Positions 47,116-64,000 of a DNA stretch of 64,000 nucleotides are shown here, piece by piece. The position numbers and the translations under genes are program-made. Numbering within the stretch: position 1 is the first letter of the stretch; each line of letters opens with the position of its first letter. Below the pieces are notes generated by a model that worked only from the letters and a program-made list of their open reading frames with translations, was not told the DNA's origin and made no database searches. Location: NCBI RefSeq assembly GCF_008017535.1, contig NZ_VRUA01000006.1, positions 1 through 64,000 on the forward strand, in the 5' to 3' direction. The DNA comes from Ottowia flava. GTDB lineage: Bacteria > Pseudomonadota > Gammaproteobacteria > Burkholderiales > Burkholderiaceae_C.

Positions 47116-47157
47116 AGCTGTCGGATGTGACGATGGCGGCGTGCAGAGAGTTGCTTT

Positions 47158-47213
47158 CAAAATGATAGCTATTAGCGCAGATGCTTGTAGCGCCAAAGCC
47201 TCATTTGGCTTTG
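47158..47213 (-). repeat. Dispersed ~60 bp repeat, copy 6
   Basis: AATGATAGCTATTAGCGCAG, then ATGCTTGTAGCGCCAAAGCC and TCATTTGGCTT, is in the same orientation as copy 3. It lies between chrA and the divergent pigment-cluster operon. Confidence 0.7.
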
Positions 47214-47273
47214 TATCCGGATGCACGCCATTTCCCGGACTGGCGCGCATGTCGGCTGGCACATAATTGCCAC

Positions 47274-48128
47274 ATGGCCTCACCGCTTCGACCCGCCACG
47301 CCGTGGCGGCCCAGCCTGTTCCTTCGTCTCAGCGCTGCCCTGCATGGGGTGGCGCTGATGGGTGCGCTGGTCTGGCCCGCGCAGTGGCCCTGGTGGCTGG
47401 GGCTGGTTGCGGGCAACCACCTGGTGCTGAGCACCGCGGGTCTCTGGCCGCGCAGCCGCCTGCTGGGTGCGAATCTGACGCGGCTGCCGCCTGAAGCCGC
47501 GGCGCGCGGCGAGGTCGCCCTGACCTTTGACGACGGACCCGACCCGGCGGTCACCCCGCAGGTGCTGGCCTTGTTGGACGCGGCTGGCGCGCGCGCCACC
47601 TTCTTCTGCGTGGGCGAGCAGTTGCGCCGCCATCCACACCTGGGCCGCGAGATCGTGCGGCGCGGCCACCGCATCGAAAACCACACCGACACCCACCCCA
47701 ACAGCTTTGCCGCCATGGGCTGGCGGCGCATGGCCGCGCAGGTCGCGAACGGGCAGGCGGCGATCACCACGATCACTGGTCGTCCACCGCGCTTTTTCCG
47801 CGCCGTGGCGGGGCTGCGCAACCCGTGGCTCGACCCCATCCTGGCCCGCCAGGGCCTTCAGCTGGCCGCATGGACACGGCGGGGCTACGACACCCGCACG
47901 GGCGATGCCGATGCCGTGCTGGCGCGGCTCACGCGCGGCCTGGCTGCGGGCGATGTGCTGCTTTTGCATGACGGTCACGCCGCGCGAACGCCCGGTGGCC
48001 TGCCAGTGGTGCTGGCGGTGCTGCCGCGCCTGTTGGGCGAGCTGCGGGCGCTGGGACTGCGCAGCGTGCCGCTGGCAGAGGCGGTGCCGGAGACAACAAG
48101 CATTCAGTGGCAGGGAGTGACTGCATGA
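47274..48128 (+). CDS. Polysaccharide deacetylase family protein (NodB domain)
   Basis: This 284-residue protein has an N-terminal hydrophobic segment (LHGVALMGALVWPAQWPWWL, LVAGNHLVLS) anchoring it to the membrane. The NodB domain follows with metal/catalytic motif LTFDDGPDPAVTP, the zinc-binding histidines in HTDTHPNS and the C-terminal LLLHDGH. It would deacetylate an N-acetyl sugar or related group outside the cytoplasm. Its stop overlaps the methyltransferase start (ATGA), tying it to the pigment operon. Such a gene heads some aryl-polyene clusters, but its role there is unknown to me. Confidence 0.85.
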   Translation: MASPLRPATPWRPSLFLRLSAALHGVALMGALVWPAQWPWWLGLVAGNHLVLSTAGLWPRSRLLGANLTRLPPEAAARGEVALTFDDGPDPAVTPQVLALLDAAGARATFFCVGEQLRRHPHLGREIVRRGHRIENHTDTHPNSFAAMGWRRMAAQVANGQAAITTITGRPPRFFRAVAGLRNPWLDPILARQGLQLAAWTRRGYDTRTGDADAVLARLTRGLAAGDVLLLHDGHAARTPGGLPVVLAVLPRLLGELRALGLRSVPLAEAVPETTSIQWQGVTA

Positions 48129-48979
48129 AGAACGAACTGAGCAGTGCGGTGGCGGGCGCGGGCTCGGCCGCCGTGCTGAAGGCGCCGCACGCGCGATCAA
48201 GCGGCGGGCAACGCACGCCGGCCCCAGGCTCTGCCCCCGTGCGCGCGCTGCAGCGCCAACTGGTCGACCTGGCCAGCGCGCGCTACCGCGACAAGGGGCG
48301 CTTTGCATACCACTTTTCGCGCGGCAAGCTGGGCGGCGACCCGATGTTCATCGAACTGCTGCGCCTGGGCGCCTTCACCGGCCAGCGCGGGCGAGGAGCG
48401 CGTTTTCTGGATCTCGGTTGCGGCCAGGCGGTATTTGCCTCTTGGCTGGTCGCCGCCCGCACGCTGGCCGAGCAGGGGCGCTGGCCCAGCGACTGGCCAG
48501 AGCCCCCGCGCATCGAATCCGTGCGTGCGCTGGAGCTGATGCCCGCCGACGTGGCGCGCGGGCAAGCCGGTTTTGCCGACGAACCGCGCGTGCACGTGGA
48601 ACAGGGCGACATCTGCGAGGCCGATTTCGGCAACGTGGACGTGATCACCATCCTGGACGTCATCCATTACCTGCCGCTTGCCGCGCAGGACGATGTGCTG
48701 TGTCGCATCCGCGCTGCGCTCCGGCCGGGCGGTGTGCTGGTCATGCGCGTTGGCGACGCTGCCGGCGGCTGGCCGTACCGCCTGAGCCGCTGGGCCGATC
48801 AGGCCATCACACTTGGCCGCGGACACGGTTGGGCGTACCTGCACTGCCGCCCGCTGGCGACCTGGACGGCCAGCCTGCACGCCTTGGGTTTTCAGGTACA
48901 TGCGGTACCGACGCCGGGTGGACTGCCTTTCGCCAACGTGCTGCTGATCGCGCATGTGCCCGCCGAGGGCGCTGCATGA
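48125..48979 (+). CDS. SAM-dependent methyltransferase of the pigment cluster
   Basis: This 284-residue class I methyltransferase has SAM motif I in FLDLGCGQAVFASWL and a later acidic motif in DVITILDVIHYLPLAAQD, and RIRAALRPGGVLVMRVGDAA is typical post-motif III. The N-terminal 45 residues are Ala/Arg-rich and unstructured. In aryl-polyene clusters a methyltransferase decorates the aryl head group. The ATG at 48125 overlaps the preceding stop, and its own TGA overlaps the ketosynthase start, so translation is coupled on both sides. Confidence 0.85.
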   Translation: MKNELSSAVAGAGSAAVLKAPHARSSGGQRTPAPGSAPVRALQRQLVDLASARYRDKGRFAYHFSRGKLGGDPMFIELLRLGAFTGQRGRGARFLDLGCGQAVFASWLVAARTLAEQGRWPSDWPEPPRIESVRALELMPADVARGQAGFADEPRVHVEQGDICEADFGNVDVITILDVIHYLPLAAQDDVLCRIRAALRPGGVLVMRVGDAAGGWPYRLSRWADQAITLGRGHGWAYLHCRPLATWTASLHALGFQVHAVPTPGGLPFANVLLIAHVPAEGAA

Positions 48980-50190
48980 CGGCGCCACTGGTCCTGACCG
49001 CGTTCACCGCCACCACCGCCCTGGGCGTGGGCACCGCACCGTTGCTTGACGCACTGCGAAACGGCGCATCCGGCCTGAAGCCCTGCGACTTCGAAACCGC
49101 CGACATCGCCACCTGGACCGGCGAGGTGCCCGGCATCGACTCCGTCCAGCTCCCGCCTGATCTGGCCGTCTACGACTGCCGCAACCACCGCCTGGCGCTG
49201 CTCGGTCTGCAGGCCGATGGCTTCGAGCAGGCGGCGCGGGACGCCATCGCGCGCCATGGCACCGACCGCGTCGCGTTGGTGCTCGGCACGAGCACCTCGG
49301 GCATCCTGTCGGCCGAAGCGGCGTACCGCGAGCGCGACGCCGACGGCGCGCTGCCCGACTGGTTCGACTACCGCACCACGCACAACACGGGTGCGTTGAG
49401 CAGCTTCGTGCGCGATCTGCTGGGTCTGCGCGGGCCGGCGTTCACCATCTCCACGGCGTGCTCGTCATCGGCCAAGGCGTTTGCGGCGGCCGATCGGCTG
49501 ATCGCTGCGGGGTTGGCCGATGCTGCCATCGTCGGTGGCGTCGATTCGCTTTGCTTGACCACGCTGTACGGCTTTTCGTCGCTCGAGTTGACATCGCCCG
49601 AGCCTTGCCGCCCCGGCGACGCCAACCGCCAGGGCCTGTCGATCGGTGAAGCCGCGGCCTACGCGCTGCTCGAACGGGCGGACGCTGCACCGACCACGGG
49701 CACGGCGCGCATCGTGCTGGCAGGGTGGGGCGAGTCGAGCGATGCGCACCACATGTCGGCGCCGCACCCTGAAGGCCGGGGCGCGCGCGCCGCGATGGCG
49801 CAGGCGCTGGAGCGCGCCGGGCTCTCAGCCCAAGACATCGGCTACGTCAACCTGCACGGCACGGCGACGCCAGCCAACGACCTGTCCGAAGGCGCGGGCG
49901 TGGCAGCGGTGTTCGCCGAGAACGCCCGCGTGCCAGCCAGCTCCACCAAGGGCATGACCGGCCACACGCTGGGTGCTGCCGGCGCCGTCGAGGCGGTGAT
50001 CAGCGCGCTGGCGCTCCAGCACGGCCTGCTGCCGGCCAGCGTGGGGATGCAGACCCCCGATCCGGCGATCCCGCTCAACATCGTTTCGGGGCCCCAGGCG
50101 GCGCCAGGCTTGCGCAACGTGCTATCCAATTCTTTCGGCTTTGGCGGCAGCAACGCCAGCCTGGTGCTCTCGCGCGAGGAGGCAGCATGA
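48976..50190 (+). CDS. Beta-ketoacyl-ACP synthase (FabF-like, APE ketosynthase)
   Basis: This 404-residue condensing enzyme carries the catalytic triad C162 (STACSSSAKAF), H294 (NLHGTATPAND) and H330 (GHTLGAAGAVEA). It would extend the polyene chain with malonyl-ACP, working with the chain-length-factor-like protein that overlaps its stop, as ApeO does with ApeC in the E. coli aryl-polyene system. The true start is the ATG at 48976; the much longer frame upstream belongs to the methyltransferase's shadow. No second ketosynthase is present in this operon. Confidence 0.92.
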   Translation: MTAPLVLTAFTATTALGVGTAPLLDALRNGASGLKPCDFETADIATWTGEVPGIDSVQLPPDLAVYDCRNHRLALLGLQADGFEQAARDAIARHGTDRVALVLGTSTSGILSAEAAYRERDADGALPDWFDYRTTHNTGALSSFVRDLLGLRGPAFTISTACSSSAKAFAAADRLIAAGLADAAIVGGVDSLCLTTLYGFSSLELTSPEPCRPGDANRQGLSIGEAAAYALLERADAAPTTGTARIVLAGWGESSDAHHMSAPHPEGRGARAAMAQALERAGLSAQDIGYVNLHGTATPANDLSEGAGVAAVFAENARVPASSTKGMTGHTLGAAGAVEAVISALALQHGLLPASVGMQTPDPAIPLNIVSGPQAAPGLRNVLSNSFGFGGSNASLVLSREEAA

Positions 50191-51065
50191 GCGCGATCCC
50201 TTCGTCGGTCGAACGCGACGCCGACTTCCTTCGCGTGTGGGTGGAAGGCGTCGGCATCGTAGGTCCCGGCCTTGCCGACTGGCCCCAGGCCAGCGCCGTG
50301 CTGCGCGGTGAGCAGGCCTACGCCGCTGCGCCCACCCATCTGCCTGCGCCCGAAGTGCTGCCCCCGGCCGAACGACGCCGCGCCAGCCGCATCGTCAAGG
50401 CGACGCTGGCCGCGGGGCTTCAGGCCTGCCGCATGGCTGGGCGCGACCCGGCCACGCTGCCCAATGTGTTCGCCAGCTCCGGTGGCGACGGGCACAACTG
50501 CCACGCACTGTGCGAGCTCTTGGCGACCGACGACCGCCAAATCTCTCCCACGCGTTTTCACAACTCGGTGCACAACGCGGCCTCGGGCTACTGGTCGATC
50601 GCCACCAGCGCCACGCCCGCTGCGCAGGTGCTGGGCGCCTACGACGCCAGCTTTGGCGCGGGCCTGCTCGAAGCCATGACGCAGGTCGAAGCGGCGGGCC
50701 AGCCCGTGCTGCTCGTCGCGGGCGACAGCGAATACCCGCCGCCCTTGCACGCCAAGCGGCCGATCCTCGATACGTCAGCGCTGGCCCTGGTGCTGGCGCC
50801 GACCCGAGGCCCGAACGCCATCGCCGAATTGCGCCTGCCGCGCCGCGGTGCCCTGGGCGACGGGCAGCCCAGCCTGCCTGCATCGTCCGACGCCGGGGCT
50901 GCAGCGCAGGGCATGCCGCCGATGCGTGGTCTGGCGCTGCTCACGGCGCTGACCGCGACCGACGGCGCGCAGGGCGTGGAAGTCGAATACCTGCCGCCGC
51001 AGGTGCTGCACGTGACGGTGGTGCCACTCGCCACAGGCGGCCACGCCACTGACGCCACCGCATGA
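50187..51065 (+). CDS. Chain-length-factor-like ketosynthase homologue (ApeC-like)
   Basis: This 292-residue protein resembles the N-terminal half of a ketoacyl synthase (Ketoacyl-synt_2 type): VWVEGVGIVGPGLADWPQAS, the RASRIVKATLAAGLQAC segment, NVFASSGGDGHNCHALCELL and SPTRFHNSVHNAASGYWSIA. There is no TACS nucleophile motif, so it is not catalytic by itself. Related proteins heterodimerise with the ketosynthase and set chain length. It overlaps the ketosynthase and dehydratase genes by 4 bases each. Confidence 0.85.
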   Translation: MSAIPSSVERDADFLRVWVEGVGIVGPGLADWPQASAVLRGEQAYAAAPTHLPAPEVLPPAERRRASRIVKATLAAGLQACRMAGRDPATLPNVFASSGGDGHNCHALCELLATDDRQISPTRFHNSVHNAASGYWSIATSATPAAQVLGAYDASFGAGLLEAMTQVEAAGQPVLLVAGDSEYPPPLHAKRPILDTSALALVLAPTRGPNAIAELRLPRRGALGDGQPSLPASSDAGAAAQGMPPMRGLALLTALTATDGAQGVEVEYLPPQVLHVTVVPLATGGHATDATA

Positions 51066-51544
51066 GCGCCGACGCCGTGTTTTTGGCCGCTGCGGGGCAG
51101 GGGCACGACTGGATCGCCGCGCGCGTGCCGCACCAGGGGCGCATGTGCCTGCTTGATACGGTCGAGCAGGTGACGGCGTCCGACGTGGTCTGCACCGCCA
51201 CCAGCCACACCGCACCCGACAATCCAATGCGTGAAGCTGGCCGGCTCGGCGCGGCCTGCGGCATCGAATACGCGGCCCAGGCCATGGCGCTGCATGGCGC
51301 GCTGGTTGCCGAGGCGCGCGGCGTGCCGCCGCCCACGATGGGGTTTCTGGTCAGCGTGCGCGCCGTGGCGCTGCACGTTACCCGGCTCGACGACGTCGGC
51401 GAGCGCCTCACCGTCCAGGTTCACAGCGACGCCGACAATGGCGACCACAGCATCTACACCTTCGCGCTCAGCGCCGAGGGCCGCCCGTTGATCGACGGGC
51501 GCGCCATCGTCATGCTTGACGCGGCTCCTCTCGTTTCTCCATGA
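51062..51544 (+). CDS. Hotdog-fold 3-hydroxyacyl-ACP dehydratase (ApeP-like)
   Basis: This 160-residue FabA/FabZ-like protein has the probable catalytic histidine in ARVPHQGRMCLLD (residue 24). EYAAQAMALHGALVAEARGV forms the central hotdog helix, and GFLVSVRAVALHVTRLDDVG is a following strand. It would dehydrate the beta-hydroxy intermediate to build the conjugated polyene. It overlaps both neighbouring genes by 4 bases. A second dehydratase lies in the opposite operon at 61342-61659, as in known aryl-polyene clusters. Confidence 0.87.
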   Translation: MSADAVFLAAAGQGHDWIAARVPHQGRMCLLDTVEQVTASDVVCTATSHTAPDNPMREAGRLGAACGIEYAAQAMALHGALVAEARGVPPPTMGFLVSVRAVALHVTRLDDVGERLTVQVHSDADNGDHSIYTFALSAEGRPLIDGRAIVMLDAAPLVSP

Positions 51545-52296
51545 GCTCCTCTTCTTCCGTCGGCGCGCGCCCGCAGCGCCGTGCCCTGGTGACCGGTGCC
51601 AGCGGCGCCATCGGCAGCGCCATCGCGCGCGCACTCGCGGCCGAGGGTCTGCACGTGCTGGCCCATGCCAACGGCAACCGCGCCGCTGCCGAAGCGCTGG
51701 TCGCCGAGCTGATCGCCCAGGGGCAGTCGGCCGAGGCGCTGGTTTTTGACGTGACCGACGCCTCCGCCTGCGCCAGCGCCCTGGCTGCCGTGCTGGAGCA
51801 AGGACCGATTCACGTGCTGGTGAGCAACGCCGGCGTGCACGACGACGCCGTCTTCGCGGGCATGACGCCCACGCAATGGCAGCGCGTCATCGACGTCAAC
51901 CTGAACGGTTTCTACAACGTGGCACAGCCGCTGATGCTGCCCATGCTGCGCGCGCGCTGGGGCCGCATCGTCGCCATCACCTCAGTGGCCGGACAGGCGG
52001 GCAACCGCGGCCAGGTCAATTACGCAGCGGCCAAGGGCGCGCTGCACGCGGCTGTGAAATCGCTCGCGCTCGAATGCGCCAGCCGCGGCGTCACCGTGAA
52101 CGCGGTGGCGCCCGGCATCATCGCCAGCGAGATGAGCGCGGACACCTTTGACACCGACGCGATCAAGCGCATGGTGCCCATGCAGCGCGCGGGCCAGCCC
52201 GCCGAGGTCGCCGACCTGGTTGCGTTTCTGGCATCGGACAAGGCGGGCTACATCAGCGGCCAGACCATTGGCATCAATGGGGCGCTGTACCAATGA
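51541..52296 (+). CDS. fabG: 3-oxoacyl-ACP reductase (FabG/ApeQ-like)
   Basis: This 251-residue short-chain dehydrogenase has cofactor motif TGASGAIGSAIARAL, the NAG strand LVSNAGVHDD and catalytic serine in VAITSVAG. The Y-x3-K is in NYAAAKGALHAAVKSLALE, and the C-terminal segment is SGQTIGINGALYQ. It reduces the beta-keto group after each condensation, using NADPH. The start overlaps the dehydratase stop, and its stop overlaps the antiporter start (ATGA). Its place in the operon identifies it as the dedicated pigment ketoreductase. Confidence 0.93.
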   Translation: MSSSSSVGARPQRRALVTGASGAIGSAIARALAAEGLHVLAHANGNRAAAEALVAELIAQGQSAEALVFDVTDASACASALAAVLEQGPIHVLVSNAGVHDDAVFAGMTPTQWQRVIDVNLNGFYNVAQPLMLPMLRARWGRIVAITSVAGQAGNRGQVNYAAAKGALHAAVKSLALECASRGVTVNAVAPGIIASEMSADTFDTDAIKRMVPMQRAGQPAEVADLVAFLASDKAGYISGQTIGINGALYQ

Positions 52297-53603
52297 GCGC
52301 CGTGGCCCAAGCGGCTGCGCAGGGCGGGGTTCATCACGCCGAAGCGATTCTGTATTTCACGCTGCTCCAGCTCAGCCTGGTGGTGCTGGCGGGCCGTGTG
52401 GGCTCCAGCCTGGCCGTGCGCATCGGGCAGTCGGCGGCGGTGGGCGAGATCGTCATCGGCATCCTGCTCGGGCCGTCGCTGTTCGGCTGGCTGGCGCCGG
52501 ACGCCTTCAACTATGTCTTCAAATCGGCCCCGGGCGAGCCGATGCAGGTGCTGTCTCAGCTTGGGCTGATCCTGCTGATGTTCCAGATCGGCCTAGCGTT
52601 TGATTTCGGTCATCTTACCGAGCAGCGCAACCGGCGCGCTGTGCTCTGGGTGGCCACGGCCGGCTTGGTCACGCCGTTTGCACTGGGTTTCGCACTGGGC
52701 TGGGTCAGCGCCCCCACGCTGGCGCCGGGTGACGGGCACCATCTCGCCACGGCCCTGTTCGTGGCTACCGCGTTCTCGATCACCGCGCTGCCAATCCTTG
52801 GTCGGATCATGATCGAGTTCGACCTGACGCGTCGGCCGCTCGGCGTGATCGGCATCAGCGCGGCAGCGATCAACGATGTGGTGGGCTGGCTACTGCTGGC
52901 GCTCGTGAGCACACTTGCCGTGTCGCAGTTTCAGGCCGGCGCGTTCGCGTTGAATGTGGGTCTGGTGGCGCTCTTCGGGATGAGTTGTTGGTGGGTGATT
53001 CGGCCGATGCTCAAGCGGGTGGTGCACGCCTCTCAGACCAGGTCAAAGAGGGTCGACGGGCAGCGCGAGCCGCTGTCCAATAACCTGCTGGGCGGCTTGC
53101 TGGCGGCAATCTTCGTTGCTTCCATGACGACCTACCACCTTGGGATCTTCGCGATCTTCGGCGGTTTCATGCTGGGCGTGCTGCTGCACGACGAGCGGGA
53201 ACTGGTCGATGCCTGGCAGGAACGGCTGGGACAGTTCACCACGGTGTTCTTCCTGCCGATCTTCTTCACCTACACCGGCCTGCGCACGGACATCGGCAGC
53301 TTGAATACGCCTGCGCTGTGGGGCTGGTGTCTGGCCACCGTTTTTCTGGCGAGCGCGGGGAAGTTCTGCGCCAGCTACCTGGCAGCGCGCTGGGTGGGCA
53401 TGCCGCCGGCCGAAGCCAAGGTGCTGGGCATCATGATGAATACGCGGGCCCTGATGGAGCTGATCGTCATCAATGTCGGCTTTGACATGGGCGTCATCTC
53501 GCGGCCGCAGTTCACCATGCTCGTCATCATGGCGATCTTCAGCACCGTGATCACCGCGCCGCTGCTGCGGCGCTGGCTGCCCCAATGCCGACCAGATGCC
53601 TGA
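52293..53603 (+). CDS. CPA2/Kef-type cation:proton antiporter
   Basis: This 436-residue membrane protein has about twelve helices. It shows GSSLAVRIGQSAAVGEIVIG, LGLILLMFQIGLAFDFGHLT, the ion-binding-helix region LFVATAFSITALPILGRIM and a late KVLGIMMNTRALMELIVINV typical of CPA2 exchangers. There is no C-terminal RCK/TrkA domain, so it is a transporter core only. It would exchange K+ or Na+ for H+. It is translationally coupled to fabG, at the spot where known aryl-polyene operons carry a second ketosynthase. Its role in the pathway is unclear. Confidence 0.87.
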   Translation: MSAVAQAAAQGGVHHAEAILYFTLLQLSLVVLAGRVGSSLAVRIGQSAAVGEIVIGILLGPSLFGWLAPDAFNYVFKSAPGEPMQVLSQLGLILLMFQIGLAFDFGHLTEQRNRRAVLWVATAGLVTPFALGFALGWVSAPTLAPGDGHHLATALFVATAFSITALPILGRIMIEFDLTRRPLGVIGISAAAINDVVGWLLLALVSTLAVSQFQAGAFALNVGLVALFGMSCWWVIRPMLKRVVHASQTRSKRVDGQREPLSNNLLGGLLAAIFVASMTTYHLGIFAIFGGFMLGVLLHDERELVDAWQERLGQFTTVFFLPIFFTYTGLRTDIGSLNTPALWGWCLATVFLASAGKFCASYLAARWVGMPPAEAKVLGIMMNTRALMELIVINVGFDMGVISRPQFTMLVIMAIFSTVITAPLLRRWLPQCRPDA

Positions 53604-53604
53604 T

Positions 53605-53660
53605 GCTATTGATTGAGTAGCTGCCTGCGCTTGCCTGATAAGCGCGAGAGCCGAATTCAG
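53605..53660 (-). repeat. Dispersed ~60 bp repeat, copy 7 (diverged)
   Basis: GCTATTGATTGAGTAGCTGC, then CTGCGCTTGCCTGATAAGCG, resembles copy 3 (37880-37942) in the same orientation but is diverged in its second half. It separates the two convergent pigment operons and overlaps the last bases of the glycosyltransferase gene. Confidence 0.55.
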
Positions 53661-54481
53661 CTGGAGTTTCGCGTGGAAGACAGCAGGCGTCGACCCACCA
53701 GGATAGGCAGGCGCAAAAGGAACCCGAGAAACAGACGTGTGTGCATCCAGGTGAGCAAGGTGTTGTCGCGCAGGTATTTGAAATGCGACACACCGCCTTC
53801 ATCCGCGCTGAAATAGCGCACCGGTGCAGGCAGGTTGACAAGAGGCACACCCGCCCACGCCAGGCGCACCGCAGCCTCGGGATCGAAGTCGAAGCGGCGC
53901 ATGAAGCGTTGGTGCCGCATGACGCGGATCAGCGGCTGGATTGGGTAGACCCGAAAGCCGAACAGCGAATCGACGATACCGGCGCCGAGCGTCTCCAGGT
54001 TTGCCCAACCGTTCGAGATCTTGCGGCCCAGCACGCGGATGCGCGGCGCCTCGGCGCCGAACTGTGGTACGCCCAGCACCATGGCTTCCGGCGCTGCGTG
54101 CGAGGCATGCATGAACTTTGGAATGAGTTCCGCCGGGTGCTGACCATCGGAGTCCATGGTCAGCGCATGGGTGAAGCCTTCGGCTGCAGCCAACTCCACG
54201 CCGTGCAACACGGCAGCACCTTTGCCGCGGTTCTCGGGCAGAATCACCACGCGCAAGCCAGCATCTTCGGCCGCCCGGGCGCGCAACCAGTCGGCACTGC
54301 CATCGGTGCTGCCGTCCACGATGACCCACACCGGCGCCCAGTGCGCGCGGGCAGTACGCAGTGTGTCCTGCAGCTTGACGCCCGGGTTGTAGCTGGGGAT
54401 CAGCACGAGATGGGTGGACGAAATTGCCCCGCAGGGGGCGGACGCACCGTCTGTCGGCGTTGCGGAGACAGCGTTAGCCAT
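53657..54481 (-). CDS. Glycosyltransferase family 2 (dolichyl-phosphate mannosyltransferase-like)
   Basis: This 274-residue GT-A protein carries LVLIPSYNPGVKLQDTLRTA, nucleotide-sugar loop VIVDGSTDGSADWLRA and LPENRGKGAAVLHGVELAAA. The metal-binding DxD motif is in TMDSDGQHPAELI. It would transfer a sugar to a lipid or to the polyene head group at the inner membrane. The start overlaps the acyltransferase upstream by 8 bases. It is the last gene of the minus-strand operon; its last codons touch a dispersed repeat, so the very C-terminus may be altered. Confidence 0.88.
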   Translation of the reverse strand: MANAVSATPTDGASAPCGAISSTHLVLIPSYNPGVKLQDTLRTARAHWAPVWVIVDGSTDGSADWLRARAAEDAGLRVVILPENRGKGAAVLHGVELAAAEGFTHALTMDSDGQHPAELIPKFMHASHAAPEAMVLGVPQFGAEAPRIRVLGRKISNGWANLETLGAGIVDSLFGFRVYPIQPLIRVMRHQRFMRRFDFDPEAAVRLAWAGVPLVNLPAPVRYFSADEGGVSHFKYLRDNTLLTWMHTRLFLGFLLRLPILVGRRLLSSTRNSS

Positions 54482-55280
54482 GGCCGTTGACCTTGTCGTC
54501 CAGGATCACCGAATGAGAAGCCACCTCCGACGCCGACACGAGATGCTGGGTCAGCAGGGCGCGGATATCGTGTCCAAAGCGTTGTGCGTCCGCGTTGGCC
54601 ACCTGTATCTGCGCCACGTGGCGCACACGCACTCGCAGGGGCAGACGCGGCGGCCTGGTCAGAGGCCACTGCTTGCCCAGGTAGGGCGAACTCATCTCGA
54701 TCACGACCACCTCGATTGGCACGCCAGCGCGTGCGGCAATCACCCCTGCTGTGGCGGCGCAAGGGCCCACCGGCATTTCAGCCGTGCGTGTGCCTTCCGG
54801 GAAGATGATCAGTCGGGCGCCGTCCTTGAGTTCAGCGATCGCACTGCGGATCATGGTCAGTGGCGCATCGTTGACGATGTAGCGCGCCATGCGCGCGCCA
54901 GCGCCGAGCAGCAGGTTGTGCATCAGCAGCGCCTTCATGATGCACACCGCGTTCGGCAGATGCGAGACCAAAAGAACGGCGTCAAGCAGGGAGGGGTGAT
55001 TGGCCACAACGACCATCGGACCGGGGCGTCGTGCGAGTTCGTCCAGCGCTTTCAGATCAAATCGACAGCCGCAGAGCGCCTGCAGCAGGATGACATACAG
55101 CCGAAAACCGGTCTGGATGGCGCGTCGTCCGACGCGCTTGCCCAGGGGTTGCGGAAGGATGGGGCCCAGCACCAATGCGAACGGTGTCCAGGTCAGACAG
55201 ACGGCCGCCAACAACCCCAGCCCGATGGCCATGGCCAGGCTTTCGGCGACGCGGCGCAGGCCTGCGGCGACAAGGTTCAT
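54474..55280 (-). CDS. PlsC-like 1-acyl-glycerol-phosphate-type acyltransferase
   Basis: This 268-residue protein has an N-terminal membrane helix (LAMAIGLGLLAAVCLTWTPF) and the acyltransferase motifs VVANHPSLLDAVLL (H-x4-D) and LIIFPEGTRT. It probably loads an acyl group, perhaps the polyene itself, onto a glycerophosphate-like acceptor; related acyltransferases belong to known aryl-polyene and xanthomonadin clusters. It overlaps the glycosyltransferase gene and follows the flavoprotein gene by 51 bases. Confidence 0.87.
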   Translation of the reverse strand: MNLVAAGLRRVAESLAMAIGLGLLAAVCLTWTPFALVLGPILPQPLGKRVGRRAIQTGFRLYVILLQALCGCRFDLKALDELARRPGPMVVVANHPSLLDAVLLVSHLPNAVCIMKALLMHNLLLGAGARMARYIVNDAPLTMIRSAIAELKDGARLIIFPEGTRTAEMPVGPCAATAGVIAARAGVPIEVVVIEMSSPYLGKQWPLTRPPRLPLRVRVRHVAQIQVANADAQRFGHDIRALLTQHLVSASEVASHSVILDDKVNGHG

Positions 55281-55331
55281 GCGACGGCGGCGGGTGCTAA
55301 GACGGAAGGATGGTTGCGTTGGCGCAAGCCA

Positions 55332-56693: not shown

Positions 56694-56754
56694 CGGGCGC
56701 GCAGGCGACAGCCTGCTTGCTATTTCCTGAAGTGATTATTGCACCCCGACGCTG

Positions 56755-57417
56755 TCAAACCGCACCGCGGCGACGTACGGAAAGCCAGCCAACGGCAATG
56801 CCTAGTAGAGCACCTGCGATGACATCCAGCAAGAGATGTTGTTTGGTGGCCATGGTCGAAAAAACGATCCCGGCACACCAGAGGAGGTTAACGATATACA
56901 GCCAGGCTGGAGCCGCAACTTTTCGAAGGATCGCGTGCAGCCAAAGGCACGACATGACCGACGCAGCCACATGCAGGGACGGGCATGCATTGCCGTTGCT
57001 GTCGACGGCGTAGAGCATGGCGAACAAGGCGTTGCCGGCGGGTCTGGGCCCCACCGCCTCAGACACGGAGGAGGGCCAGAGATAGAACACCACCAACCCC
57101 AGCACACAGAGCACCGTCATGGCCACCCCGTACCCGACAAGGCGTTGCTTGTCGGGCTGCAAAGCGACCGGAAGGGCTGTGTAAACCCACAGCGAGAGAT
57201 ACAGGCCGATGGCCCATGGCTGGAAACCAATCCAGTGGTCGACGTCCGTCGCGGGGATCTGGGCCACTTCAAACGCGGGGTGCTTTTGAATGGCCAGGTA
57301 AAGCTGAAAGAAAACGACGAGAAAAACCGTATTGCCCAATGCCTTGAGCCATGCGAGAGTGCGCACGCGAGTGCGCAACTCCGTGCGCCAGCTAGGCGCG
57401 GGAGCGAAATGGTTCAT
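56755..57417 (-). CDS. PAP2-family membrane phosphatase
   Basis: This 220-residue membrane protein with about six helices carries the PAP2 motifs: SNGNACPSLHVAASVMSCLW (the PSxH motif) and STMATKQHLLLDVIAGALLG (Sx5HxxxD motif). The N-terminal half holds the first helices before the long loop ending YLWPSSVSEAVGPRP. It would dephosphorylate a lipid phosphate, for example a phosphatidate or polyprenyl-type carrier. The start overlaps the MMPL stop by 4 bases, so it belongs to the operon, although I do not know PAP2 as a standard aryl-polyene gene. Confidence 0.87.
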   Translation of the reverse strand: MNHFAPAPSWRTELRTRVRTLAWLKALGNTVFLVVFFQLYLAIQKHPAFEVAQIPATDVDHWIGFQPWAIGLYLSLWVYTALPVALQPDKQRLVGYGVAMTVLCVLGLVVFYLWPSSVSEAVGPRPAGNALFAMLYAVDSNGNACPSLHVAASVMSCLWLHAILRKVAAPAWLYIVNLLWCAGIVFSTMATKQHLLLDVIAGALLGIAVGWLSVRRRGAV

Positions 57418-59861
57418 GCGAGAGCGCCCGCCTCCTTCATGCGTTCAGAATCGCTTCTGGACCAAGCCATGGCCAGAAGCAAAGCGAGGAGGGCGCCTGG
57501 ACCCACTGTCGACCCAATCGCATGGAGCACGGGTACTTTCGACCAAGCCAGGATTCCGAAACCGATCATGGTGGATACATTTGCCAGCGCGAGCGATGCG
57601 AGGGCGGCCGCGCGCGCCGGAGCTTCTGCGCTTTCTGCCGTTTCACTGCCTGTCGCCCAAGCGCTGAAGCGCTGATCGAAAAAAAGCGCATAGTTGGAGC
57701 CAACTGCCACGATCAGCAGCAAGCCGACCAGGTGCAGCAGGGTCATTGGCGTTCCCGCGACGACGTGCCCAGCCATGACAAGCGACACCGCGGCGCCTAG
57801 GGGCATGAGCACGCGCAGCACGCGCACCGGGCTTCGCAAGGATACGAACAGGATGCCAACGATGCCAACGATGCCGGCCGCGGAGAATGCCAAGGCTTCT
57901 TTCAGGTACTTGCCGAACATCTGCGTCGATTGTGAATCGACGTCAAGGAAATAGGCCTTCTGCTGCAGCGGTGCTGACATCAGCGCGGCCTCTATCGCTT
58001 GGCGGCTCTTTTCGGCAGTCGAGGGGTCAGCAGGCAAAGACAGGGGCATCAGAACCGACCACCCACTCTCGCGCTGCAGTAGCAAGGTCTGAAGGACGAA
58101 CTCGAAGCTGGTGCCGTGCAATGTCTGGGTGGTTATCGGACCTGAACTGCGCGCTGTCTCGACGTCCTCGATGAACGGCTCAAGGCGCGCCGCCTTGACC
58201 GGCAGTCCGGCAGTTGCTTCGACCAATCGTGCTGACAAGGTCGACGCGTCCGGCAGCGCACTGCGCCGCGCGGTCTGAGTTTCTGAACTCGGAAGAAAAT
58301 GGGCCGGACTGTCGATGCGTTCGATGTTGCGGTTCTTCAGTAGGGGCGCAAGATGGGCTTCAGTCACTTCAGCTGCACGCAGGGCTGCATCTGCAGTAGG
58401 CGCCGACACCACCACCATGTGCGCCAGGTTCGGTGCGCCTGCCTCAAGCCTCAAACGCTCGTCCAACTTCTGGAGATCTCGCGGGGCGGGGTTCAGGCCA
58501 GAAAGCCCTTGGGCCCACAGACGGTCATGATGGGTCGCAACGACGCCCACGGCCACCAATGCGGCAGCAGCTACCACCCACCGAAGCCCTTGGGCCAGAG
58601 CACAGATCTGGGCCATGCGGTGGCCAAGCCAGCGGATGCTGGACGCCGGCACTGGTTGCGAAGGCAGGGACGGGAGTACGAACCGGGTGACTGCAGCGGC
58701 CGTCAGCAAACCCGCAATGGAATAGATGCCCAACTGGCCCAAGCCCGGAAAGCTGGAAAACAGCAGGGCAGCAAATCCGCATACCGATGTAGCGACGCCC
58801 AGCCGAACCGTCGGCCAATAGTCGCGACGCCAATCGGCGTCCCCGCTTGACTGAACCAGGTAGTAAATGCTGTAGTCAAGGGTTTCTCCCAGCAGCGTGG
58901 TGCCGAATCCCACAGTGATGGCATGCACTGTCTCAAAGCCAAGGAAAACCGCCACCACCGCCACCAGGATGCCGGTGAAGACGGGCACCAGCCCGATGAG
59001 CATGTTACGAATTGAACGGTAAAAGGCAAACATGATCAGCAGGATGCTGATGCCGCCGACGAGCGAAAGGCGCTCAACCTCGCTTTTAATGCTCTGGCGC
59101 GCGTCGACCGAGAACACTGGTGCGCCAGACACTACCAACTTCAATGTGGCATCGTGCCGTTCTCTCTCGAATGTGTCTCGTATGCGAGCGAGTACCGACT
59201 CCTGGGCATCGGTATCCGTTCCCGGCGCGGCTGTCATCGCGATGAGCAGCGCTGTGTCACCCGAGGCGGAGGTCCAGACGCCATCGTGCCCCGCCGGTGC
59301 CCGTCCGCTCGTCAATCGGCCAATCAAGGCGGGCAGTTCTCCCGTCGGATCGCGCGGGAAGATGGACTTGAGAATCAGACCTGCGGATCCACCCAGCTCG
59401 TTGATTGAATTGCGAATCGCGGCATGTAAACCCGATGGGCTGAATCGCTCTGGGGACACCTGCTGACTGAGCAAATAGCGCGATTGCATCAGCAATGTTT
59501 GGTCGCGTTCACGGCTTGCGGCATCGCCGTTGATAACACTGGCGAATGCCGCGTCGTCGCGCAGCGCGGCCGCCAGCCGCTCGGATGCGCCAGCGCGCAA
59601 TGAAGAATCGCCTCCTTCGATGCCCATGAGCACCATCCGCGACAAGGCGCCGTCCTTGATCTGATCGACCAGTAGGCGCTGCTGTTCGTCGGGGTTCTTC
59701 GGAAGGAACGCCGACATGTCCGTGCTCAACCGGACGCTGTTCAACGCGAGCAGACAGCACGCCACCAGCGCTAGCCAGAGCCCGACAGCGATGGTTCGAT
59801 GAACTGGGGCAAACGGGGCGGTGCCGCTGCGGCCAGCTCGCGAGCACTTGTCAGCGTGCAT
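57414..59861 (-). CDS. MMPL/RND-type lipid exporter
   Basis: This 815-residue inner membrane exporter has two repeats, each with one helix, a large periplasmic domain and five helices. Recognisable are TVGFGTTLLGETLDYSIYYL in the first half and LIVAVGSNYALFFDQRFSAW in the second, with RLSTDMSAFLPKNPDEQQRL after the first helix. In aryl-polyene clusters this protein is thought to move the lipid-linked pigment towards the outer membrane. It overlaps the LolA-like gene (11 bases) and the PAP2 gene (4 bases). Confidence 0.9.
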   Translation of the reverse strand: MHADKCSRAGRSGTAPFAPVHRTIAVGLWLALVACCLLALNSVRLSTDMSAFLPKNPDEQQRLLVDQIKDGALSRMVLMGIEGGDSSLRAGASERLAAALRDDAAFASVINGDAASRERDQTLLMQSRYLLSQQVSPERFSPSGLHAAIRNSINELGGSAGLILKSIFPRDPTGELPALIGRLTSGRAPAGHDGVWTSASGDTALLIAMTAAPGTDTDAQESVLARIRDTFERERHDATLKLVVSGAPVFSVDARQSIKSEVERLSLVGGISILLIMFAFYRSIRNMLIGLVPVFTGILVAVVAVFLGFETVHAITVGFGTTLLGETLDYSIYYLVQSSGDADWRRDYWPTVRLGVATSVCGFAALLFSSFPGLGQLGIYSIAGLLTAAAVTRFVLPSLPSQPVPASSIRWLGHRMAQICALAQGLRWVVAAAALVAVGVVATHHDRLWAQGLSGLNPAPRDLQKLDERLRLEAGAPNLAHMVVVSAPTADAALRAAEVTEAHLAPLLKNRNIERIDSPAHFLPSSETQTARRSALPDASTLSARLVEATAGLPVKAARLEPFIEDVETARSSGPITTQTLHGTSFEFVLQTLLLQRESGWSVLMPLSLPADPSTAEKSRQAIEAALMSAPLQQKAYFLDVDSQSTQMFGKYLKEALAFSAAGIVGIVGILFVSLRSPVRVLRVLMPLGAAVSLVMAGHVVAGTPMTLLHLVGLLLIVAVGSNYALFFDQRFSAWATGSETAESAEAPARAAALASLALANVSTMIGFGILAWSKVPVLHAIGSTVGPGALLALLLAMAWSRSDSERMKEAGALA

Positions 59862-60426
59862 CTGGAGCGACGGTGATCAGCGATTTGTCGCCGTCGGCCT
59901 GCAACGTCTCCACTGTGTTCACGCCTTTGTCGGTACCGGCTACTTTGATCTGCTTGACCCAGCGTCGAGTCCGATCATCAAGTGGCGTCAGGGCCAGTTG
60001 CCATTTGCGTTCCGTGCCGGACAGCGACAGAGCGTAGTGCTGCTCAAGCAGGGCGCGGTTGCCAACCAAAGTGCCGCGCAAAGCCTCCACGAATGCAAGC
60101 ACTTCTGGGTATTGAGGCAGTCGAAGCTGCCGTTTCACTCCGTCGCGCACGACGGTCAGGTCGTTGCCATGGATCACCAGAGACTCTGGGGCTGGCTTCA
60201 GTGTGTGCTTTTCCAACCGATCGGGAGGGCTGTAAACCAGTTCGCCGCTGCTGACGACCGGCTGCTCCAGTACGGCGAGTGTCTTGGTTTCGGTGAAGGT
60301 CGCGCGCCCAGAGGGGTGCTTCGCAAGCTGCTGCATCAGCGCAGGGATGTCCCACTCCGCCAACGCGGCAGAACTCGCCATCACCGTGACGAGAGCCACT
60401 GCCAATCGCAGGCTAAGGTGCGTCAT
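59851..60426 (-). CDS. LolA-like periplasmic lipid carrier
   Basis: This 191-residue protein has signal peptide MTHLSLRLAVALVTVMASSA ending near AALAEWD. The LolA-like barrel segments are GRATFTETKTLAVLEQPVVS, SGELVYSPPDRLEKHTLKP and WQLALTPLDDRTRRWVKQIK. It is expected to carry the hydrophobic product from the MMPL exporter across the periplasm. The ATG at 60426 overlaps the LpxL-like gene end by 14 bases; longer in-frame starts lack a signal peptide. It is a standard member of aryl-polyene clusters. Confidence 0.87.
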   Translation of the reverse strand: MTHLSLRLAVALVTVMASSAALAEWDIPALMQQLAKHPSGRATFTETKTLAVLEQPVVSSGELVYSPPDRLEKHTLKPAPESLVIHGNDLTVVRDGVKRQLRLPQYPEVLAFVEALRGTLVGNRALLEQHYALSLSGTERKWQLALTPLDDRTRRWVKQIKVAGTDKGVNTVETLQADGDKSLITVAPDAR

Positions 60427-61345
60427 TTGCCCAGAAATCATAAAAATTGAACCAGTTCCAAGGAGCGTCAACGCATTGGGCTTCCAGGATTTCCACATAG
60501 CGTCGCTGGGCATTCGTCATCGCTTGGCTCCGCTCGGCCGCATCGACATTTTGAAAGTCCGCGATAGCGTCGAAGCGAAGATGGTATCGATTTCCGCCAA
60601 GATATACGCCAGCCATGAACACGACCGGGGCGCGCAACAGCGCTGCAAGGCGAAATGGCCCCGTGGGAAAAGGTGCAGGAGAGCCCAGGAACTCCACATG
60701 ATCAGTGCCCTCCTGGGCATCGGCAACACTGCGATCAGCCAAGATGCCGACGCAGCCGCCCGTGGTCAAATGGTCGCGGACGCGCAACACGGCGTCGGAA
60801 CGACCGAGGGCAATCACACTGTCCGCCAACGCGGGGTTGATGGCTGCCAACGTCTGCGTCACCATGCGGGCATTGTCAGGGTACATGAGCATGCGTACGT
60901 CGAGTCCATTGCGCACGCCCAATACGCGCAGGGCTTCAAAGCTGCCGAAATGGCCACCCATGAAGACCACGCCGCGTCCAGTACGTTGATACTGCTCAAG
61001 CAGATCGTCGCCGGTGATCTGAATGTCGAACAGATCGTGGCAGTCGCTCAACCAGTAAATGCGGTCGTGCACAACCGAAGCGAAAGAGAGCACATGGTGA
61101 AAGCCATCGGCGATCCATGCTTCTCTGCCCAGTGCTCGATTCAAAAACTGCTTGCTCGCCCGCTTGGCGGAAGGGGCGAAAAGCACGAAATAGGCGGCGA
61201 TGGGATAGAGGATGCAGCGACTGACCCTGCGGCCGAGATGCAGGGAGAGCCATCGCATCAGGCGCATGACGGCCATGGAACTGCGCTCGGGCTGTTGGGA
61301 CCACTCGCTCGTGCTTGGCGGGCTGGGTGGGGACGTCGAAGTCAA
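60413..61345 (-). CDS. LpxL/HtrB-like lysophospholipid acyltransferase
   Basis: This 310-residue protein is homologous to lipid A lauroyltransferases. It has an N-terminal EWSQQPERSSMAVMRLMRWL with membrane helix, catalytic H132-x4-E137 in GGHFGSFEALR and a conserved PTGPFRLAALLRAPVVFMAG. In aryl-polyene clusters such an acyltransferase joins the polyene or a fatty acid to the lipid carrier. The conserved W/ER segment supports the TTG start at 61345, overlapping the dehydratase stop; otherwise an ATG at 61276 would truncate it. Confidence 0.85.
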   Translation of the reverse strand: MTSTSPPSPPSTSEWSQQPERSSMAVMRLMRWLSLHLGRRVSRCILYPIAAYFVLFAPSAKRASKQFLNRALGREAWIADGFHHVLSFASVVHDRIYWLSDCHDLFDIQITGDDLLEQYQRTGRGVVFMGGHFGSFEALRVLGVRNGLDVRMLMYPDNARMVTQTLAAINPALADSVIALGRSDAVLRVRDHLTTGGCVGILADRSVADAQEGTDHVEFLGSPAPFPTGPFRLAALLRAPVVFMAGVYLGGNRYHLRFDAIADFQNVDAAERSQAMTNAQRRYVEILEAQCVDAPWNWFNFYDFWANDAP

Positions 61346-61659
61346 GCCAGAGGCTCCAGAGAAAGGGAACCGACGCAGGTCACTCGAGTGCCAGCGAAAA
61401 GTTCGAAACTAAGCAATGAGTCCGTGACGGAGCCGCGCAATATCAATGTGCTGCCTGGGGATGCAGCTGCCATCCACTTGACCTGCTTCAGTCCAATGAC
61501 TTGGCGCCGCGTCGCCTGTTCCACCGCGATAACTACGCGATCGACCAGCGCAGCGCCTGGAATCACCACATGTTGCGGAAAATGGCCTGCGAAGCGTGCC
61601 CCCTCGTACAAAAACGTGCTTTCCAATGTGGTTGGGAAATCGCTGACGCAATCGCTCAT
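61342..61659 (-). CDS. Second hotdog-fold dehydratase (ApeI-like)
   Basis: This 105-residue single hotdog domain starts MSDCVSDFPTTLESTFLYEG. The catalytic histidine H27 lies in RFAGHFPQHVVIPGAALVDR, the usual GHFPxxPxxPG-like motif of FabZ-type dehydratases. It is the small dehydratase partner of the one at 51062. The ATG at 61659 overlaps the ligase stop by 4 bases; the frame extends far upstream but only into the antisense of the ligase. It is translationally linked with both neighbours. Confidence 0.86.
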   Translation of the reverse strand: MSDCVSDFPTTLESTFLYEGARFAGHFPQHVVIPGAALVDRVVIAVEQATRRQVIGLKQVKWMAAASPGSTLILRGSVTDSLLSFELFAGTRVTCVGSLSLEPLA

Positions 61660-63008
61660 TGACGGTCGCTCTTCGTTTGCACGCGGCGATAGAGTGCCTG
61701 AATCTCCGTCGCCAGCAATTTGCCTGTGGCATTTCGGGGCAGGGCATCCACCTTGAGCAACGGGCGAGGCAGGAACGCGGCGTCGACTTCCCTGCGCAGC
61801 AATGCCAACACTTCGTGCTCGCTCAGAGAGGGCGCAACCACCAATGCGGCAAGTCGCTGAACGCCTTCTGCCGGCAATGCATGGCCGGCATCGGGCAGGA
61901 GAAAGCACCCGTCGTCCACGCCCACGAGACTGCGCAGCGTGGTCGACAATGCGCCGATCGACGCGCGCTTGCCGGCAATGTTGACCATATCGGCATGTCG
62001 ACCACCCAATTCGAAGTAGTCGCCCTTGATGCCCGCGATATGGTCGGTCAATGCGACGCGGCCCTCGACATGGCCGCCGCTGACCCATGCTTGGTCACCG
62101 TCAGACGTCATATCCAAGCCGGGCAGCAATTGCCAAGTGGGTCCAGCAGTCGTTCGACGGCTTGCAACCTGACCGCTCTCGGTGCAGCCATAGATCTCGA
62201 ACAGGGAGCTCTGAAAAAGTGATTCGGCAGCACTGGCCAACGAGGTCGAAAGTGGCGCTGTGGCGCACAGCAGAAGGTCGGACGGCGGCATGTTGTTGCC
62301 GGAGTTCACCACGTTGGAGAGATGGAACGGTGTGGTGACCAGCATCCGAGGCCTAGGAGTGGCCTCAAGTGCTGCCTGGATATCGGCAGGGTAGAAAGGG
62401 CGCCCACGCCACAGGCTTGAGCCTCCATGTAGCGCAAGGAGAACGCTCGACTCGAATCCGTACATGTGCTGCGCCGGTACCGTGGCGACAATCGTGTGAC
62501 CCGCGGACCGCAGTCGTTGTGCTTCCGAGGCGCCGTTAATGCCCAGGCGGCCCCAGCGCTTGACGTGTGCAGTCGGTTCGCCGGTGCTTCCCGACGTGAA
62601 AACAATGGCGGCAACCTGGTCAACAGGAATGCTGGGAACCTCAACACCGTGTTTGCCTGACCCAGGCGGCTCATCCACAATCTGCCAGCTCGCGATACCG
62701 TCCGCCTGTTGATGCCCATCGTGCAGGCAAATGACGTCGGCGTAGTGCAACTGGATTTGCTTCAGGGTGCCCGGGGTGAAACTGGATGGCATCAAAGTTG
62801 GGCGTCCATCCATCAGCGCGGCTGCCAGGCCCAGCATGAACAGATAGCGGTCCTGACAGGTGTTCAGAACATGGCGCCCAGGTGGCAGACGATCCGCCAA
62901 CTGCGTCGCTTGCCGGCAGAACGTCTCGACGGTGATAGGGCCGCTTGGGCCGTACACAAGCACATCGCAGAGCGCGTGCGTGGTCAAGGGCAGACAGTCA
63001 ACGCTCAT
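61656..63008 (-). CDS. AMP-dependent aryl/acyl-ACP ligase (ApeH-like)
   Basis: This 450-residue adenylate-forming enzyme has phosphate loop AAIVFTSGSTGEPTAHVKRW, motif SLFEIYGCTESGQVASRRTT, hinge region FELGGRHADMVNIAGKRASI and C-terminal lysine in LPRNATGKLLATEI. It would activate the aryl starter acid (for example a hydroxybenzoic or coumaric acid) and load it onto the ACP. The ATG at 63008 overlaps the stop of the COG4648-like gene (ATGA), so the longer frame to 63065 is not used. Confidence 0.9.
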   Translation of the reverse strand: MSVDCLPLTTHALCDVLVYGPSGPITVETFCRQATQLADRLPPGRHVLNTCQDRYLFMLGLAAALMDGRPTLMPSSFTPGTLKQIQLHYADVICLHDGHQQADGIASWQIVDEPPGSGKHGVEVPSIPVDQVAAIVFTSGSTGEPTAHVKRWGRLGINGASEAQRLRSAGHTIVATVPAQHMYGFESSVLLALHGGSSLWRGRPFYPADIQAALEATPRPRMLVTTPFHLSNVVNSGNNMPPSDLLLCATAPLSTSLASAAESLFQSSLFEIYGCTESGQVASRRTTAGPTWQLLPGLDMTSDGDQAWVSGGHVEGRVALTDHIAGIKGDYFELGGRHADMVNIAGKRASIGALSTTLRSLVGVDDGCFLLPDAGHALPAEGVQRLAALVVAPSLSEHEVLALLRREVDAAFLPRPLLKVDALPRNATGKLLATEIQALYRRVQTKSDRQ

Positions 63009-63709
63009 GGTGCGCGCTGGGGTGCCCGCGACTGGTGACGCAGGCGTGCCTGTATCGCGCGCCATGTCCCGGTCAAGCCGACGCGATCCTGGGGGGGAAG
63101 AAAGCGGCTGCGGAGCAGGTTTTCAATCAGGAACACCGCGCCCGTTAGGAGGGGCCCTATCACCGCTGAGAACCCGGTCCAGGCTTCAGGCGAGGCATAC
63201 CGGAACAGCAGCAGTGACGCAATGACCATCAATCCGAAGAACATTGCCCACCAAAAGGTCACCTGGCGCGTGTACCACAGCAACCGTGTAGACGACATGT
63301 CTTCGTGGACCCAACTGGCAAATTCGGTACACAGCGGCGTGCATCCATGTCGCAGCGTTCGCGCGAAAAGCCAGCACAAGATGGCGTGAACACCGATATG
63401 CTGAGCAAGATAAAGCAGGCGGACATTGCTCAGGAGTGGTCGCCAAGCCAGACCCAGTGCCAGCAGCGTGGCAATCAGCGGCAAGAGCCGGCCAATCCGC
63501 ACGGCTGTGGGCAAACCAGCGCGCGCTCCGCCCTTGGCGTACGCAAGAGCAAACCATACGAACGGCAAGGCAGCCAAGGCCAGTGTCAACGGAGAAGGGT
63601 GTCTGCTTGTCCAGAAAACGGCTAACGCGTACAGCGCCACACCCGCCAAAGTTGCGATCAGCGGAATGGGGATACGGTTCAATGACGCCCGATGCGGCAT
63701 TGGCTTCAC
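63005..63709 (-). CDS. COG4648-like membrane protein of aryl-polyene clusters
   Basis: This 234-residue protein has five or six hydrophobic helices, among them IPLIATLAGVALYALAVFW, PLIATLLALGLAWRPLLSN and FWWAMFFGLMVIASLLLFR, with the segment TRQVTFWWAMFFGL between. It matches the membrane protein regularly found between ACP and ligase genes in aryl-polyene operons, whose biochemical role is unknown. Start and stop both overlap neighbours by 4 bases. Confidence 0.82.
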   Translation of the reverse strand: MKPMPHRASLNRIPIPLIATLAGVALYALAVFWTSRHPSPLTLALAALPFVWFALAYAKGGARAGLPTAVRIGRLLPLIATLLALGLAWRPLLSNVRLLYLAQHIGVHAILCWLFARTLRHGCTPLCTEFASWVHEDMSSTRLLWYTRQVTFWWAMFFGLMVIASLLLFRYASPEAWTGFSAVIGPLLTGAVFLIENLLRSRFLPPQDRVGLTGTWRAIQARLRHQSRAPQRAP

Positions 63710-63990
63710 GTGATTCGGTGCTTGGCGATGTGGTGCGCCAAGTTGCGCAGAGACGAATAAATGGCCTCGTTGTTCTCGTCGTCGGCGCGTAGCTGGAAGC
63801 CGTAGCGCTTCGAGACCGCGAGCGCCACTTCGAGGATGTCGATGGAGTCAAGGCCAAGGCCATCGCCATACAGCGGCGTATCGGGGGCAATGTCCTCTGG
63901 CGCCATTTCGAGATTGAGGGACGTCACCAGCAACTGGGCAACTTCGGGAATCAGTACTTCTTCGGACGCAGGCATCGCTGGGGTATTCAT
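63706..63990 (-). CDS. Acyl carrier protein (ApeE/ApeF-like)
   Basis: This 94-residue ACP has phosphopantetheine serine S49 in GDGLGLDSIDILEVALAVSK. The four-helix pattern runs from EVLIPEVAQLLVTSLNLEMA to NEAIYSSLRNLAHHIAKHR. It carries the growing polyene. It is the first gene of the minus-strand operon visible here; known clusters have a second ACP next to it, which would lie beyond the window edge. The start ATG is 10 bases from the end of the sequence, so the upstream RBS is only partly visible. Confidence 0.92.
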   Translation of the reverse strand: MNTPAMPASEEVLIPEVAQLLVTSLNLEMAPEDIAPDTPLYGDGLGLDSIDILEVALAVSKRYGFQLRADDENNEAIYSSLRNLAHHIAKHRIT

Positions 63991-64000
63991 GAAACGCTCA

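Follow-up and report, generated by a model that had tools for sequence, protein, structure and literature searches.

A probable xanthomonadin/arcuflavin-type aryl polyene pathway encoded by two convergent operons in Ottowia flava

The stretch of the Ottowia flava genome (4.1 Mb, 53 contigs) analysed here comprises positions 1-64000 of contig C50 and is called the window in what follows. Its last part, from 47274 to 63990, holds 18 coding sequences that form two convergent, tightly overlapping operons carrying an aryl polyene (APE) gene set. The plus-strand operon has seven genes, from a NodB-type deacetylase to a CPA2 antiporter, and the minus-strand operon 11, from an acyl carrier protein (ACP) to a GT2 glycosyltransferase, with 53 bases separating the convergent antiporter and glycosyltransferase genes. 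All six plus-strand junctions are 4-base overlaps, while on the minus strand 8 of 10 overlap by 4-29 bases (the 29 hinges on the chosen start) and the remaining two are gaps of 51 and 61 bases. An earlier note on this DNA had described overlaps of 4-14 bases nearly throughout. A scan for regulatory sites returned 1 promoter-like and 19 terminator-like sites, where shuffled sequence led one to expect 2.1 and 12.1, and found neither kind in the 53-base convergent gap. Genes were labelled from Pfam and NCBIfam scans, on a weaker basis for a COG4648-like protein and for two hotdog dehydratases, DHa and DHb.

The ketosynthase (KS; plus strand, 48976..50190) scored 527 bits against NCBIfam NF006618 (cut-off 407), and its best Protein Data Bank (PDB) chains were 7f28_B and 6qsp_A, from the ApeO-ApeC complexes of Acinetobacter baumannii and Xenorhabdus doucetiae (PMC8358021, excerpt). 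The next gene encodes a half-size chain-length factor (CLF; 50187..51065, PF13723), for which 7f28_A and 6qsp_B were the only PDB matches under E 0.05. An ApeO-type KS thus adjoins a half-size CLF, one of the features by which APE/xanthomonadin-type clusters are recognised. Cys162, His294 and His330 of the KS, which we take to be the catalytic residues, were invariant across the 12 KS aligned. Gln166 of the CLF occupies an alignment column that is Gln in 40 of 49 rows, the window protein included; the alignment omits shorter matches such as that of Lysobacter locus L108, which has Gln at the equivalent place by pairwise match. In Lysobacter enzymogenes a glutamine-to-alanine change in the CLF wiped out the pigment (PMC3691225, excerpt), and the equivalence of Gln166 to that residue is read from the matching helix, the L. 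enzymogenes protein itself lying outside the alignment.

Each operon also encodes one small hotdog protein, DHa on the minus strand (61342..61659) and DHb on the plus strand (51062..51544). The family matches of DHa (PKS_DH_N and FabZ) were both below cut-off and none was obtained for DHb in Pfam or NCBIfam, while both AlphaFold models (predicted local distance difference test, 91 each) match dehydratases. The reference here is 6qsr, the ApeI:P dehydratase heterocomplex. Chain 6qsr_B ranks first by fold for DHb, whose sequence match to the PDB is weak (E 0.015); 6qsr_A is the best, weak, PDB sequence match of DHa (E 0.0075) and ranks third by fold, among similar FabZ scores. DHa and DHb resemble a dehydratase pair of the ApeI:P kind in their predicted structures, DHa with the weaker support. 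Should they form a pair like that of ApeI:P, each operon would contribute one product to the assembled dehydratase. A FabG/ApeQ-like ketoreductase (KR; 51541..52296, PF13561, NCBIfam NF004200 above cut-off) follows DHb.

The minus-strand operon begins with the ACP (63706..63990; PF00550, NCBIfam NF006617 above cut-off), the putative carrier of the aryl chain. It is followed by the COG4648/ApeG-like membrane protein (63005..63709), labelled from its position and size, with no Pfam match and a single NCBIfam match, to IspZ, below cut-off (E 1.6e-4); most of the relatives compared have a counterpart in the same place. The adenosine monophosphate (AMP)-forming ligase (61656..63008; PF00501, 61 bits) is the counterpart of ArcT and, by homology, likely loads 3-hydroxybenzoate onto the ACP. 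Beyond DHa lie an LpxL-like acyltransferase (60413..61345, PF03279), a LolA-like periplasmic carrier (59851..60441; PF19574, PF03548, and NCBIfam flexirubin LolA2 below cut-off), an MMPL/RND exporter (57414..59861, PF03176), a PAP2 phosphatase-like membrane protein (56755..57417, PF01569), a flavin adenine dinucleotide (FAD)-dependent halogenase-like tailoring enzyme (55332..56693), a PlsC-like acyltransferase (54474..55280, PF01553) and the GT2 glycosyltransferase (53657..54481, PF00535). A halogenase characterises the xanthomonadin subtype, and that activity is predicted here from PF04820 (E 3.7e-31) and from the closest solved structures, which are halogenases. The plus-strand operon further comprises the NodB-type deacetylase (47274..48128, PF01522; ArcN counterpart), an S-adenosylmethionine-dependent methyltransferase (48125..48979, PF13489/PF08242; ArcM counterpart), whose likely role is ring O-methylation, and the CPA2 cation/proton antiporter (52293..53603, PF00999; ArcG counterpart). 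A minus-strand frame at 45838-47283 (ChrA-like from its translation, unscanned) overlaps the NodB frame head to head at 47181-47283, so the true starts and the position of the plus-operon promoter are uncertain.

The ACP, ligase, KS, CLF, KR, LpxL, PlsC, GT2, LolA and MMPL functions named in the earlier note were all recovered by these scans, so that dedicated loading, reducing, acyl-transferring and exporting proteins accompany the KS-CLF pair; for the COG4648-like protein and the two dehydratases, the predicted folds of DHa and DHb agree with it, but the family matches are weak or lacking. The PAP2, halogenase-like, deacetylase, methyltransferase and antiporter genes are additional to it. 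Its proposal of a pigment cluster of the APE/xanthomonadin type, divided between two converging operons, is supported by the 18-gene set and the ApeO:ApeC-type KS and CLF.

It had also expected a second ACP and an aryl-starter enzyme beyond 64 kb. There the ACP proved to be the first gene of its operon, and rimP-nusA-infB (named from translations, no family scan) come next on the opposite strand, with neither a second ACP nor a starter enzyme in between. Searched across the genome at E 0.001, PF00550 matched only the fatty-acid ACP (C1:416270) and the cluster ACP, so the expected second ACP was not found. E. coli-type APE clusters have a second ACP, the ketosynthase ApeR and ApeK (PMC8253772, excerpt). 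The ApeR-type model NF006587 gave four matches in the genome, none over cut-off, and these were set aside as a FabB beside FabA, a KS on C1 next to the fatty-acid ACP and a β-ketoacyl-ACP synthase III (KAS III), the cluster KS and a fragment on C52.

A candidate for the starter enzyme was found, on another contig and not beside the cluster. It is a XanB2-like, chorismatase-like protein of 366 aa on contig C1 (112587-113438), unlinked to the cluster, and none of the six other reading frames scanned in its neighbourhood (seven including the chorismatase) belonged to a pigment-type family. It scored 205 bits against TIGR04444, under the cut-off of 325, and its PDB relatives are 5ag3/5a3k and FkbO (4bps), of the FkbO/Hyg5 kind (best E 5.7e-45, 5ag3); the chorismatase type cannot be read from sequence alone (PMC3949708, excerpt). 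In a survey of 200 family genomes, 46 matched the AMP ligase (two only at E about 1e-22), and the chorismatase was present in 27 of these 46 versus 2 of the other 154 (Fisher p 7e-19, a value too small because the genomes are related). Several relatives (L041, L043, L049, L053) even carry the chorismatase gene inside the cluster. We thus regard the C1 protein as the likely source of 3-hydroxybenzoate, as judged by homology. An aromatic ammonia lyase was also considered: the sole PF00221 match adjoins a HutC-like regulator and reads as a histidine ammonia lyase (both named from translations).

The starter could instead be 4-hydroxybenzoate (4-HBA), made as has been suggested for E. coli by a chorismate lyase belonging to ubiquinone synthesis, with the unlinked chorismatase serving another purpose. 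The E. coli APE is predicted to start from UbiC-made 4-HBA (PMC8253772, excerpt), and ArcT also took benzoic acids modified at position 4 (PMC3949708, excerpt). Moreover, among the 11 genomes of a 29-genome genus survey with ligase or CLF, seven gave no chorismatase match at E 1e-10; some of the seven are drafts, but three are rated 99% complete. Against this, chorismatase and ligase co-occur strongly across the family genomes and some clusters contain the chorismatase gene, and we consider the 4-HBA route rather unlikely, 3-hydroxybenzoate from the C1 chorismatase being preferred.

Concerning gene order, the earlier note had called the split into two convergent operons unusual. Ligase and CLF lie on the same strand in 31 of the 46 ligase-bearing family genomes (ligase upstream in 30, downstream in 1) and are convergent in four (G000, G146, G015, G064); in the rest they are on different contigs (9), more than 50 kb apart (1) or the CLF is missing (1). 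Within the genus, 10 of the 29 genomes have the ligase and 11 the CLF, and seven have them linked and convergent (G000, G146, G015, G207, G210, G225, and G217 with about 29 kb between them). The two are 1.5 Mb apart in G201 and on different contigs in G204, while G222 is fragmentary and G209 has the CLF only. The ACP block adjoins rimP-nusA in 8 of the 10 ligase-bearing genus genomes and in the family genome G079, versus none of 16 other family loci (within roughly 20 kb). Since 10 of those 16 loci already have the KS block opposite GT2, the family has probably had the convergent border for a long time, and the genus-specific change is probably the location of the ACP-to-MMPL block. Convergent layouts also occur in at least four Lysobacterales loci (L105, L107, L108, L113; order label confirmed for two of the genera) among 45 compared of at least 80 named loci. 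The convergent layout is real, but its rarity was overstated, given these loci, the 10 family loci and the two separate loci of Azoarcus (PMC3949708, excerpt). A search of open-licence PMC papers found no description of the genus layout, which is not proof of absence.

The locus of G217 retains what may be a trace of a rearrangement. Its ACP block has a near-complete GT2 gene as neighbour (L056, 14663-15400), and about 18 kb from that gene a GT2 tail of 48 residues (L063, 13891-14034) still faces the antiporter, a pattern suggestive of an insertion that broke up a once convergent arrangement. Two congeners, G207 and G225 (L057, L059), have a further KS-like match (32-34% identity) between ACP and rimP that the window does not have. 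The halogenase-like gene, whole in the window, gave a partial match in G207 (L057, 6192-6605) and none in the stretches of G146 (L036) and G225 (L059). Among congeners, both the halogenase-like gene and the antiporter gene are variably present, so that ring decoration may differ between species.

The plus half had been described as more GC-rich than the minus half, with the suggestion that the two have separate histories. The GC difference was confirmed, at 0.698 versus 0.608 for the ACP-MMPL block and 0.624 for PAP2-GT2, and the GC-rich stretch extends beyond the cluster (44.0-47.2 kb, 0.701). Fifty-three 6-kb samples of the genome, from 18 regions picked by place and not at random, had a mean GC of 0.673 (standard deviation 0.017, lowest 0.640), with 5 of the 53 at 0.697 or more, so that the ACP-MMPL block departs further from the genome samples than the plus half does. 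The first 36 kb of the window (1-36000) is also low, at 0.614. In the 16 other family loci that have both blocks, the total GC of one lies within about 2 points of that of the other. Of the genus genomes, G146 has the plus-strand block higher by 7 points, G015, G204 and G222 by 5, G201 by 3, G210 by 4-9 and G207, G225 and G217 by 1-2. These sizes indicate a step specific to part of the genus, in a GC-poor region, and such a difference between neighbouring operons does not, taken alone, count as evidence of two origins.

One could nevertheless argue that the operons are of separate origin, one half having been gained horizontally and having later adjoined the other. The plus half and the ACP-MMPL block differ by 9 points in GC and about 16 in GC at third codon positions, the ACP-MMPL block lies under all of the genome samples, and a long distance separates the halves in G201, while those of G204 sit on two contigs. 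However, rimP (0.616) and nusA (0.601), beside the minus half, are also GC-low, the step shrinks to 1-2 points in three congeners, and the trees of the two halves match. These were built under LG+G4 (no mixture, unrooted) from five concatenated proteins per half in 27 genomes (10 of the genus, 17 of the family), taken from tblastn matches of which several are incomplete: G201 and G079, represented by ACP and ligase alone, each fill 29% of the minus-half columns and G176 fills 40%, G209 was excluded as it has no ligase match, and nine minus-half and three plus-half rows are of unusual composition. The genus forms one clade in both (minus half 100/100, plus half 100/99), next to the same genome, G079, in both (92/98 and 100/100), while the plus-half tree does not resolve the finer branching within the genus and departs at some points from the minus-half tree. 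At the level of this family the match speaks against separate origins and largely refutes the horizontal-gain explanation, which we judge very improbable.

Gene content, homology, gene order, the matching trees and the chorismatase gene elsewhere in the genome are all consistent with a xanthomonadin/arcuflavin-type APE pathway whose genes sit in two co-evolving, mutually dependent operons, a reading we hold to be highly probable. Several points weigh on the other side. DHa is only weakly ApeI-like, with FabZ structures ranking beside 6qsr_A, the AMP ligase matches no solved structure at E 1e-5, and an ApeK-like thioesterase is absent from the Pfam scan of the 18 proteins. The chorismatase is unlinked and below its NCBIfam cut-off, and it was not detected at E 1e-10 in 19 of the 46 ligase-bearing family genomes; together with the seven genus genomes this means that the lineage must have a further way of making the starter. 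Support for the genus clade is only 74/61 in the two-gene tree of PlsC and GT2 (23 genomes).

With the co-evolving operons as the preferred reading, we infer the following route. The C1 chorismatase would supply 3-hydroxybenzoate, which the AMP ligase would load on the cluster ACP; malonyl units are probably carried by the housekeeping ACP, because a second cluster ACP was not found. KS-CLF, KR and the dehydratase pair split across the operons may then build the conjugated polyene, whose ring would be decorated by the methyltransferase and the halogenase-like enzyme. PlsC, LpxL and GT2 could provide lipid anchoring, and MMPL and LolA transport to the outer membrane, for what looks like a yellow APE pigment such as those of Xanthomonas and Azoarcus. 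As for the arrangement, the ACP-ligase-export block may have come beside rimP-nusA in an ancestor shared with G079, joining there the GT2-PlsC-halogenase side that already faced the KS block. The pigment cluster would thus have been rearranged without being broken, as far as the genes tell, and dehydratase partners, like loading and elongation enzymes, are divided between operons that stay together by descent. A tentative, rather doubtful extension is that a loading-and-export and an elongation module change places over time, now in a single operon, now convergent, now far apart, yet are co-inherited as one system, the lasting home of the loading block in the genus being rimP-nusA, where its expression might be tied to the output of ribosome and transcription genes.

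A close known counterpart is the arcuflavin system of Azoarcus sp. BH72, whose pigment genes occupy two unlinked loci; insertions in arcK at one and arcT at the other each gave colourless cells, and ArcT adenylated 3-hydroxybenzoate (PMC3949708, excerpt). The window gene set closely matches the arc genes of Table 1 in that paper, as excerpted: both have two loci with a KS, a half KS, two dehydratases, reductase, antiporter, glycosyltransferase, two acyltransferases, halogenase, methyltransferase, deacetylase, exporter, LolA, ligase and one ACP. Unlike in Azoarcus, the window loci adjoin and converge, and the chorismatase lies elsewhere in the genome; the regulators, outer membrane protein and reductase arcF listed for Azoarcus were not seen in the window, nor was a DarB-like enzyme found. 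The likeness in gene set and locus split might suggest an arcuflavin-like polyene-dialkylresorcinol ester as the product, but the sole PF08541 (KAS III) match in the genome lies less than 4 kb from the ACP and KS on C1 and reads as FabH, which leaves no DarB candidate among PF08541 matches (DarA/DarB models were not searched), and we consider such an ester very improbable. Its genes are best assigned to the broader xanthomonadin/arcuflavin type. The xanthomonadin-like cluster of L. enzymogenes, as far as the excerpt of PMC3691225 goes, likewise pairs a KS with a half-size CLF, pigment requiring both of them, has two dehydratases and one ACP, and differs in having no halogenase and a chorismatase-type gene (ORF5) within the cluster. 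The APE clusters of E. coli and Acinetobacter share the ApeO:ApeC ketosynthase, two dehydratases, reductase, ACP, acyltransferases and export proteins, and differ by a second ACP and the ketosynthase ApeR, in E. coli also ApeK, none of which was found here (PMC8253772, PMC8358021, excerpts). What is unusual about the O. flava locus is mainly its gene order.

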